32,233 bases of DNA from Synergistaceae bacterium (GTDB taxonomy: Bacteria; Synergistota; Synergistia; Synergistales; Synergistaceae), in contig JAISLO010000139.1 in NCBI GenBank assembly GCA_031290815.1, positions 1 to 32,233 of the forward strand. The letters are read 5' to 3'. A program made the translations under genes and the position numbers. Of the stretch, positions 1-2,953 are shown one piece after another. Each line of letters opens with the position of its first letter. Positions within the stretch are counted from its first letter, which is position 1. The notes under the pieces are model-generated. The model searched no databases, was not told the origin of the DNA, and worked only from the letters and a program-made list of their open reading frames with translations.

Positions 1-355
1 CTATCAGCGACATGACGTGACATTCGTCCGTTCCGGGTTTGATGCCAAGGATATTGATGGCGCCCATCGTGACCGGCATCCGCAGGTTCGTCACATTTCC
101 CGTGATGTACGACATATAAAGTGAACCGGGCCCCATGACCGGCATGTAGCTGATGAGTTCGGCCGGCCAATACGGCGCCAATATGATCGTTAAAGTGACG
201 ACGCCGGGAAGAAGCGCCTTCACTGGCGGCCACAGGTCATACGTGAGGCTGACCGCGAGAGGAAAGGCAATCATCATGACGCATAGCGCGAAATTAGACG
301 TGATGCCGAAGAAATGCACCCATTTATTGAAATCAGCTCTCGGCTGCAATGACAT
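1..355 (-). CDS. Membrane protein, partial (runs off left edge)
   Basis: This reading frame is not in the ORF track because it runs off the window; I translated it from the reverse strand. It starts at an ATG (353-355) and stays open for 118 codons. The Shine-Dalgarno GAGAGGTGA lies just upstream, and the DUF5058 stop codon is 12 bases before it. The protein starts MSLQPRADFNKW. It then shows hydrophobic segments around residues 17-36 (CVMMIAFPLAVSL) and 50-62 (LLPGVVTLTIIL), so it is an integral membrane protein. I do not recognise a named family. Because it directly follows a DUF5058 membrane protein and an amidohydrolase in one operon, I infer that the two membrane proteins form a small-solute transporter for the hydrolase's substrate or product. 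The C-terminus is missing from the window. Confidence 0.75.
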   Translation of the reverse strand, partial: MSLQPRADFNKWVHFFGITSNFALCVMMIAFPLAVSLTYDLWPPVKALLPGVVTLTIILAPYWPAELISYMPVMGPGSLYMSYITGNVTNLRMPVTMGAINILGIKPGTDECHVMSLI

Positions 356-367
356 GTTTTTCACCTC

Positions 368-1078
368 TCATATCAAAAATACGCAAGCGATGATCATGCC
401 GAAAATCATGCTGAACGCCATATTGAAGTCGCCAAGCCATTTTTGGCCCGGCATCTTTTTTTGTATCTGCATGATCAGTGCGCTGACGATGAAGCTTGCT
501 CCGAATACTGTCAATTCCGATTTTCCCTTAAACCCGTAACTCGTTGTCGCATAGCCCATGATACCAGCCATACAGCCTGTTCCTACAGCTAAGACGAGAC
601 TTGGGTCGAACTTCTCTACCTGGTCGTAAACCATGGAAATCGGTTTCGTGGCAAAAATGGACCACAGAACGCAAGTACATGCCCCCAAGGACATAGTCCA
701 TGCGGCCGCCGTCCAGGCATAAGCGCTGTAGCCGTTTACGGCAAACTCTTCGCTCACGGCCTTGACGCCTATGTCAGCGGCGAGCATCTCATACATGGCG
801 GAGCCGATCACGGAAAGTCTCAGCCAAGGCAACGGAACGCCCATTAGTTTTATCAGAGAAATGAACACGATCAAAACCGGCAGCGTCGGAACGATACTGA
901 TAGTGACACCGGTCATCAACCCTTTTTTGATCTGTTCGTCCGTCATTCCGAGATCGTTCGCGCGCAGCCACGCTCGTCTCATGTAAACCAAACTCTGAGC
1001 GATCACGCCAATGAGAATGACAGATGTTAAGACGTACATCCAGGTACTGTTCGCGATCTCGGCGTATTGCATATCCAC
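368..1078 (-). CDS. DUF5058 family membrane protein (putative transporter subunit)
   Basis: A polytopic membrane protein of about 236 residues with roughly six hydrophobic segments, for example YVLTSVILIGVIAQSLVYM near the N-terminus and FSMIFGMIIACVFLI at the end. Sequence and length fit the DUF5058 family as I remember it; its function is not established. The ORF track starts at a GTG (1085-1087) that overlaps the upstream stop as GTGA. The Shine-Dalgarno AGAGAGGTGA would overlap that codon, whereas a GTG three codons later (1076-1078) sits five bases after it, so I prefer the later start; an ATG at 1070-1072 is also possible. It is translationally coupled to the amidohydrolase and followed 12 bases later by another membrane protein. 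The pair looks like a two-part permease. Family assignment is moderately sure; transport role is inferred. Confidence 0.75.
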   Translation of the reverse strand: MDMQYAEIANSTWMYVLTSVILIGVIAQSLVYMRRAWLRANDLGMTDEQIKKGLMTGVTISIVPTLPVLIVFISLIKLMGVPLPWLRLSVIGSAMYEMLAADIGVKAVSEEFAVNGYSAYAWTAAAWTMSLGACTCVLWSIFATKPISMVYDQVEKFDPSLVLAVGTGCMAGIMGYATTSYGFKGKSELTVFGASFIVSALIMQIQKKMPGQKWLGDFNMAFSMIFGMIIACVFLI

Positions 1079-1083
1079 TGTGT

Positions 1084-2355
1084 TCACCTCTCTTCGTTTT
1101 CGTTCGGTTTATATGTCTCGTAGACCACGCCGTTTTTCATGACAAAATCGCATTCGCGCAGTGCGTCCTCGTCGCTCAGCAAATCCCTGCGCCATCCGGC
1201 GATATCCGCGAGTTTGCCCGGCTCTATAGTTCCTATTTTGTCGTCCATCTCCAATATTCCGGCGTTGACGCTCGTAGCGGCTTTCAATGTACGGAACGGA
1301 TCCATCCCGGCGCGCATCCAGCTCTGATACTCATACCAGCTCTCGTAGCATTCATGCACAGCGACGAAGTCCGTGCCGTACCCCAGACGTATCTTGCTCT
1401 TCACGATGATCTCCCGCCCAGACTTCAAGCGGTCGGCGTAATAGCGCAGCTTCTCCTGGAAAAATAAAGGTTTCTTCACCAAATTCGCTTCGTCGAGGTC
1501 AATGATCTCGTTGTACGGGCAGAATGTCGGGACGAGATAGGTATCAGTCTCCTCGAACATGGCGGCGGTTTCTTCGTCCATCATCGCGCCGTGTTCCATG
1601 CCGGTGATCCCCATCTTGATGAGTTTTTGCATCAAAGGGGGCGCGTAGACGTGTGCGGTCGTGCTCTTCCGCAGCTGTTTCGCGGTAGTGATGATCGCTT
1701 CCACTTCTTCGTCGCAAAGCTGCTGATCCTCCGGCCCGTCATTGGGGGTCGAGAATCCCCCGGACATGAATAGCTTGATAAAATCTCCGCCAAATTTGAC
1801 CTCCCTTCGAACGGCTTCCCGGAAAAAATCCGCGCCGGTCCCTATTCCAGGCCCCTGACACGAATCCGACAAAGTGGGGTTTCCAGCGACGAACTGGCTG
1901 AAATCAGCGTGACTCCCGACCGTCCCCAACATGTGACACGCCGCCACTATGCGAGCGCCATGAAAATAACCTTTCTCAATCGCCTTTTTGACTGCGACAA
2001 TGCCATATCCCGGGTCTCCCAGCGCATGACAACGAATAGTCGTAAAACCTCTCTCCAGAGAGCGCTGCGACGTATGCAGATGCCCCAAGAGGCACCACGG
2101 AACCGATTGAACGGCAATCCCGGAGGCATTTTCAGAGGACAAAGAGATGAAATCCGAATGGATATGCGCGTCGATCATACCTGGGGTAACCGTCAAGTAA
2201 GAGAGGTCGGTCACAACCGTCTGGGCGGATCTGCTCAAATTTTTTCCGACCTCGACAATTAAGTTGTCCTCTATCGCGATTTCAACATTTTCGAATAACT
2301 CGTCGCTTATACCGTCGAACAGCTTACCGCAGACAATTACAGTCCTCTGTTTCAT
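1084..2355 (-). CDS. Metal-dependent amidohydrolase (imidazolonepropionase / prolidase-like)
   Basis: A 423-residue amidohydrolase-superfamily enzyme, a cytoplasmic TIM-barrel metallohydrolase that cleaves an amide or cyclic amide bond. Metal-site motifs are in the expected order: DAHIHSD near residues 62-68, a candidate carbamylated lysine in FIKLFMSGG (~195), HVYAPP (~236) and MEHGA (~255) for the other histidines, and YGTDF (~327) for the catalytic aspartate. The N-terminal beta-sandwich ends in LTVTPGMIDAH and the C-terminus has the usual GTIEPGKLADI segment. The ATG at 2353-2355 is supported by the Shine-Dalgarno GGAGGCGA six bases upstream. It is first gene of an operon with two membrane proteins, preceded by a strong promoter and a perfect palindrome. 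The substrate cannot be read from sequence; a cyclic or acylated amino-acid derivative or dipeptide is a reasonable guess. Confidence 0.85.
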   Translation of the reverse strand: MKQRTVIVCGKLFDGISDELFENVEIAIEDNLIVEVGKNLSRSAQTVVTDLSYLTVTPGMIDAHIHSDFISLSSENASGIAVQSVPWCLLGHLHTSQRSLERGFTTIRCHALGDPGYGIVAVKKAIEKGYFHGARIVAACHMLGTVGSHADFSQFVAGNPTLSDSCQGPGIGTGADFFREAVRREVKFGGDFIKLFMSGGFSTPNDGPEDQQLCDEEVEAIITTAKQLRKSTTAHVYAPPLMQKLIKMGITGMEHGAMMDEETAAMFEETDTYLVPTFCPYNEIIDLDEANLVKKPLFFQEKLRYYADRLKSGREIIVKSKIRLGYGTDFVAVHECYESWYEYQSWMRAGMDPFRTLKAATSVNAGILEMDDKIGTIEPGKLADIAGWRRDLLSDEDALRECDFVMKNGVVYETYKPNENEER

Positions 2356-2429
2356 CGCGTATCGCCTCCATGCGACAAAAACATTCTAACTCGCGCAAAT
2401 GATGAACGAGTTCAGCGTCAAGCATATTG

Positions 2430-2459
2430 ATTAGAACAAGTTCTAGAACTTGTTCTAAT
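2430..2459. promoter_or_regulatory. Perfect 30-bp palindromic operator
   Basis: The half ATTAGAACAAGTTCT is followed directly by its exact reverse complement, giving 30 bp without a mismatch. It is built from overlapping GAACnnGTTC units; a further copy, GAACGAGTTC, lies at 2404-2413. The palindrome starts at the -10 box of the minus-strand promoter and covers the predicted transcription start, the classic position for a repressor. The TTAGAAC...GTTCTAA ends resemble MarR-type operators, but the regulator is not encoded in the window, so its identity is unknown. Confidence 0.85.
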
Positions 2460-2487
2460 TATTACAAACGGCAGGAGTATTTGTCAA
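2459..2487 (-). promoter_or_regulatory. Sigma-70-type promoter of the amidohydrolase operon
   Basis: On the reverse strand a perfect -35 box TTGACA (2482-2487) is separated by exactly 17 bases from a -10 box TAATAA (2459-2464). Transcription would start near 2452 and give a leader of roughly 100 nt before the amidohydrolase ATG at 2355. The -10 box touches the 30-bp palindrome, so repressor binding should block polymerase. Confidence 0.8.
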
Positions 2488-2627: not shown

Positions 2628-2860
2628 CTAACGTATCCGGTTTTTTCTATCAGCTTTGGTAATTTTTTTGAGATAGATATTCTGAATTTGCTCGATAGAA
2701 AGATTCAATACAGGGTTTCGTTCGCTTACGAAGAATACGAACGCCTCTTTCGCTATCGGAGTTGGTCGAAGCTCCGCTCCGGCGTCGCGGGCCGTTTGCA
2801 GTTGACTGTCCGAGGGCTGGAGGACAAAGATGATGTCCGTTTCGCCGCATGTATACACTG
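2628..2860 (-). pseudogene. Decayed fragment of a PstS-like phosphate-binding protein
   Basis: One reverse-strand frame encodes about 75 residues that match the middle of PstS-type phosphate ABC transporter binding proteins as I recall them. It reads ETDIIFVLQPSDSQL, then TPIAKEAFVFFVSERNP, then LSIEQIQNIYLKKIT. In intact proteins the last motif continues ITNWREVGG; here it turns into KADRKNRIR and a stop. No signal peptide, no upstream half and no ribosome binding site are present. The open frame continues upstream to 2939, but that part has no resemblance and overlaps the terminator. I read it as a remnant of a lost gene, not a functional small protein. Confidence 0.6.
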
Positions 2861-2902
2861 CTAATGTAAGTTGTACGACCGGCCCCTTGGCGGGCGGGCA
2901 CG

Positions 2903-2936
2903 AAAAAAGCCCCCCGTAATCAGGCGGGGGGCTTTT
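2903..2936 (-). terminator. Rho-independent terminator after the fumarase operon
   Basis: A 12-bp perfect stem, AAAAGCCCCCCG / CGGGGGGCTTTT, encloses an 8-nt loop. Read on the minus strand it ends in six T residues and lies 18 bases past the fumarase beta stop codon. It ends the long mdh-hdr-flx-frd-fum operon. Being flanked by A and T runs it could work in both directions. Confidence 0.9.
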
Positions 2937-2953
2937 CATGGATCAAGCGTGGA

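Follow-up and report, generated by a model that had tools for sequence, protein, structure and literature searches.

In mycobacteria, the kstR/fadE34 promoter contains the motif TAGAAC(N2)GTTCTA, which has been assigned to KstR, a repressor of the TetR family (PMC1995591). TetR proteins that bind DNA as two dimers use operators of 22-32 bp (PMC4150764). The DNA analyzed here (the window, 32,233 nt) is an entire contig (C139) of a Synergistaceae genome (G000), which ends inside the third gene of an operon for an amidohydrolase and a putative transporter. Upstream of this operon, a promoter is followed by a 30-bp palindrome, and the features that bear on its function are as follows:

1..358, minus strand: N-terminal half of a second transporter gene, whose C-terminal part begins another contig of the same genome (G000:C241)
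368..1087, minus strand: DUF5058 membrane protein (PF16481), putative transporter half
1084..2355, minus strand: amidohydrolase (Amidohydro_1), nearest solved relatives Xaa-Pro dipeptidase/prolidase-like enzymes
2365..2369, minus strand: Shine-Dalgarno sequence GGAGG of the amidohydrolase gene, from sequence
2404..2413: third GAACnnGTTC dyad, GAACGAGTTC, centered 30 bp from the nearest unit and without TA flanks
2430..2459, no strand: perfect 30-bp palindrome formed by two overlapping operator dyads, from sequence
2432..2445: promoter-distal operator unit TAGAACnnGTTCTA, with the TA at 2444-2445 common to both units
2444..2457: promoter-proximal operator unit TAGAACnnGTTCTA, invariant outside the nn in four genomes
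2459..2464, minus strand: -10 box TAATAA, with a 17-bp spacer to the -35 box, from sequence; TAATAT in relatives G003 and G156
2482..2487, minus strand: -35 box TTGACA, from sequence; TTGACA in G003 and TTTACA in G156 at equal distance
C241:335-949, minus strand: TetR-family gene, convergent to the 3' end of the operon

The promoter TTGACA-N17-TAATAA occupies positions 2487-2459 of the minus strand (-35 at 2487-2482, -10 at 2464-2459). The palindrome, ATTAGAACAAGTTCTAGAACTTGTTCTAAT, runs from 2459 to 2430 on the same strand, has 15+15 bp with zero mismatches, and overlaps the -10 box by one base. The original prediction of a strong promoter followed by a mismatch-free 30-bp palindrome is therefore borne out by the sequence from 2487 to 2430. 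Transcription would begin near position 2452, inside the palindrome, and the operator extends from the edge of the -10 box to about +22. The palindrome resolves into a tandem pair of TAGAACnnGTTCTA dyads that share a central TA and have their centers 12 bp apart. Both units match the KstR operator (TAGAAC(N2)GTTCTA, or TnnAACnnGTTnnA): the unit is letter-identical, palindromic, and overlaps the -10 region, as in mycobacteria (PMC1995591). The arrangement differs, however, since the window has two tandem units sharing TA, placed downstream of the -10 box, and the genes behind them encode an amidohydrolase and a transporter rather than sterol catabolism. A literature search for the core GTTCTAGAAC together with TetR returned nothing relevant. 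A further dyad, TACTGTAACCGTACAGTA, at 2521-2538, precedes the -35 box by about 35-50 bp; no counterpart was seen ahead of the G003 promoter.

A palindrome of this length could in principle be a chance product or the trace of a mobile element with no regulatory role, and its single occurrence in the genome would fit such an origin. Yet the next longest perfect palindromes in the window have 8-bp arms, and the 15-bp arms lie far beyond anything in shuffled sequence, where arms reached at most 11 in 100 dinucleotide shuffles of the whole window and at most 9 in 3000 dinucleotide shuffles of the local 210 bp. From composition, a 15-bp arm is expected 6e-5 times per window and 0.004 times per genome. 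The position of the site relative to the -10 box is also kept in three divergent operons, and we consider a functionless palindrome extremely unlikely; that it is improbable by chance, as first proposed, holds up. We searched the window's own genome by pattern and by protein. The pattern search found no second copy of the palindrome in G000 (87.5% complete); the other single-dyad look-alikes have at least 2 mismatches in TTAGAACNNGTTCTAA, and the two inspected (C39 and C115) fall inside coding sequence or straddle the junction of two genes. The genome search suggested with the original prediction thus came up empty in G000 itself, but copies do exist at orthologous operons of other genomes, so that taking the lack of a second copy as a refutation would have misled.

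Conservation was assessed among 249 relatives. Two of them carry amidohydrolases with 79% amino acid identity to that of the window: G003, from the same genus (Synergistaceae MAG Gsp477_bin120, JAIRWR010000106), and G156, from another family of the same order (MAG Nc350_bin149, JAISWV010000088). Ahead of the amidohydrolase, these genomes share the consensus TTKACA-N17-TAATAT-TAGAACnnGTTCTAGARCnnGTTY, while the stretch ahead of the -35 box and the leader past the operator have diverged beyond alignment. In G003 the nn dinucleotides are TC/AT instead of AA/TT, which removes the 15+15 symmetry and leaves both dyads in place, one with a single change. As far as these alignments go, the conserved object is the pair of tandem dyads and not the perfection of the palindrome. 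The third GAACnnGTTC dyad, also part of the original prediction, is present at 2404-2413 but absent in both G003 and G156, and hence is no part of the conserved operator; it is possibly an auxiliary site, or chance. One of the more distant operons described below (G031) likewise has a dyad 30 bp past its last unit. The orthologous operons known number only three, all in metagenome assemblies.

Alternatively, the palindrome might act at the RNA level, with the transcript's 5' end serving as a hairpin, an attenuator or a processing site. The strand could form a hairpin, and the majority of its pairs persist in all four genomes compared (86.5% of cells), as would be the case for any conserved palindrome. 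However, with the predicted +1 inside the palindrome, the transcript would include it only in part; in G003, pairing is lost at the nn dinucleotides; the leader shows no better folding than shuffled sequences do (z = 0.24); no T-run follows the palindrome; and Rfam gave no match above chance. An RNA element is unsupported by Rfam, folding and pair counts alike, and we regard it as highly improbable.

The original prediction held that the regulator is not encoded in the window, which is literally so, but only since the contig ends inside the operon: the start of C241 continues the truncated transporter gene, and a candidate TetR gene lies about 0.3 kb beyond the left edge of the window. Measured against the G003 protein, the window's part of the gene extends to residue 127 and the part on C241 begins at residue 137, so that ~26 nt (about 9 codons) are missing between them. 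In G003 the TetR gene lies 43 bp past the end of the operon and is convergent to it; in G156 it is the last gene of the run, on contigs that share the split transporter gene and a 13-nt overlap. Among the 249 relatives, TetR orthologs (59-63%) and a 79% amidohydrolase occur in exactly G000, G003 and G156, and these are the three with the tandem operator before this amidohydrolase. The site also resembles a TetR-type operator in that it overlaps the promoter of the linked operon and is conserved along with its putative cognate regulator in other genomes.

The C241 protein has the expected features of the family. Its TetR_N helix-turn-helix domain (PF00440) scores 47.3 bits against a cut-off of 24, and the predicted model is all-helical with a C-terminal ligand domain (pLDDT 85.6). 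In a Foldseek search with this model, 345 PDB chains were matched at E<=0.001, and the named chains among the top 50 listed are TetR-type regulators. Among the matches listed, the closest folds are Bacillus FadR and mycobacterial KstR2 (E about 4e-6 to 1e-5), which share 18-24% identity with the C241 TetR, a level from which acyl-CoA ligand binding cannot be inferred. Nor is the protein KstR itself, as it scores 27 bits against a cut-off of 280 for the KstR equivalog NF033703. Autoregulation of the TetR gene was rejected, with no operator motif upstream of it in G000 or G156; since these genes are without an operator of their own, autoregulation could not be used as a test.

The tandem site could alternatively be read by another regulator, for which there are two candidates. 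With up to 3 mismatches, the site was found in G000, G003, G156 and G179, plus one 3-mismatch match in an unrelated genome (G198) that we take as chance. In G179 (an assembly with 9% contamination), the tandem operator precedes an operon (L083:7025-9685, G179:C154) for a sodium:solute symporter (Pfam), an aldehyde dehydrogenase-like protein, a short-chain-dehydrogenase-like protein, a TetR (Pfam) and an alcohol-dehydrogenase-like protein, the three dehydrogenase-type genes being named from translations only. This linked TetR has only 26-27% identity to the others, including the TetR of the G003 operon, and a GntR/FCD gene lies in divergent orientation to the promoter that carries the operator. 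Orthologs of this GntR/FCD protein exist at 59-60% in G000 and G003, but in those genomes they are found on different contigs, as neighbors of a 2-hydroxyacid dehydrogenase-like gene without the motif, and G156 has no ortholog (best 28%). A LysR gene stands directly upstream of the operon in G156 only, and is co-directional rather than divergent. The phyletic pattern and the missing motif led us to discard both as the regulator, and that either reads the operator is unlikely. The MarR or GntR type originally proposed is not supported either, although a GntR gene accompanies one of the four operators; the linked candidate gene belongs to the TetR family. Most likely, judging from gene content and linkage, the regulator is the local TetR-family protein and not a MarR or GntR protein.

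The TetR assignment could be examined in five more distant operons (G017, G023, G028, G029 and G031), in which TetRs of 25-32% identity adjoin amidohydrolases of 53-54% identity, together with a DUF5058-like transporter or a symporter (types named from translations). GAAYnnRTTC is present in all five operon promoters, with a chance of 1.4-3.1% each, and in G017 there are three units, 13 bp apart. Because the motif had been loosened from GAAC to GAAY after these five promoters were inspected, we scanned the whole pattern space as a control. Of 10,752 dyad patterns, the only ones to match 5/5 promoters were GAAY-N2-RTTC, its phase-shifted readings (RTTC-N3-GAAY, WGAA-N4-TTCW) and T-rich strings; twelve shuffled promoter sets gave 0-2 patterns each that matched all five. 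What the five operons and that of the window have in common is the TetR beside the amidohydrolase, and neither GntR nor LysR accounts for GAAYnnRTTC in these TetR-linked promoters. More broadly, an undescribed TetR subfamily in relatives of the Synergistaceae may accompany amidohydrolase-transporter modules and recognize GAAYnnRTTC units arrayed in tandem, with a period that changes between 12 and 13 bp. The match of the GAAC form to the KstR site of mycobacteria would then be convergent. We hold this proposal with as much doubt as belief.

Based upon the architecture of the site, its conservation in orthologous operons, the linkage and co-occurrence of the TetR gene, the fold prediction and the identity of the unit to a TetR-family operator, we propose that the palindrome very probably serves the amidohydrolase-DUF5058 operon as its operator, with the C241 TetR as the protein that reads it. 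The TetR from the 3' end of the operon would bind two TAGAACnnGTTCTA sites 12 bp apart, probably with one dimer per unit. Since the site spans from the -10 edge to about +22, bound TetR over the start site would exclude RNA polymerase. Release of the repressor by a ligand, most likely the substrate taken up by the cell or a product of the amidohydrolase, would then switch on uptake and hydrolysis together. Repression of the operon, as originally predicted, is well supported as far as the operator goes, by its position over the start site and its conservation, and "probably multimeric" binding is plausible given the two dyads. Like the dimer-of-dimers operators of QacR and CprB, the 30-bp site is predicted to have room for two TetR dimers; there, however, the dimers sit on roughly opposite faces, whereas dyad centers 12 bp apart would place them about 50 degrees apart on the helix. 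In some relatives the centers are 13 bp apart.

Mechanistically, this is an ordinary kind of bacterial control element. It assigns a candidate regulator and operator to an uncharacterized uptake-and-hydrolysis module of uncultured Synergistaceae, and the same TetR-type site now appears in a phylum far from Actinobacteria. The operon presumably imports and breaks down a small nitrogen compound; for DUF5058, no paper was found in the literature searched. The motif can guide a search for the regulon, and the ligand of the TetR offers a route to the substrate of the module.

Several further observations concern the surroundings and relatives of the operon. Between the operon and the fumarase genes, a 103-aa ORF (2628-2939, minus strand) has a weak, below-cut-off match to PBP_like_2 and is probably a decayed binding-protein fragment. 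A terminator-like 12-bp inverted repeat (AAAAGCCCCCCG/CGGGGGGCTTTT, 2905-2936) lies immediately beyond the 3' end of the fumarase genes. The amidohydrolase of G156 (L084, L123) is as similar across GTDB families (79% identity) as the enzyme is within the genus, and the transporter differs; the G156 operon and operator may have moved horizontally. Finally, G015:C3 (L141:7533-7562) contains another perfect 30-bp palindrome, ATAGCGTATATCATATATGATATACGCTAT, shortly after a TATAATA box. It precedes a distant amidohydrolase (29%) and a transporter-like gene, and the 3' end of this run holds a GntR-like gene (both the transporter and the GntR were named from translations only). The layout is the same, but the sequence is different and the regulator family probably is as well.
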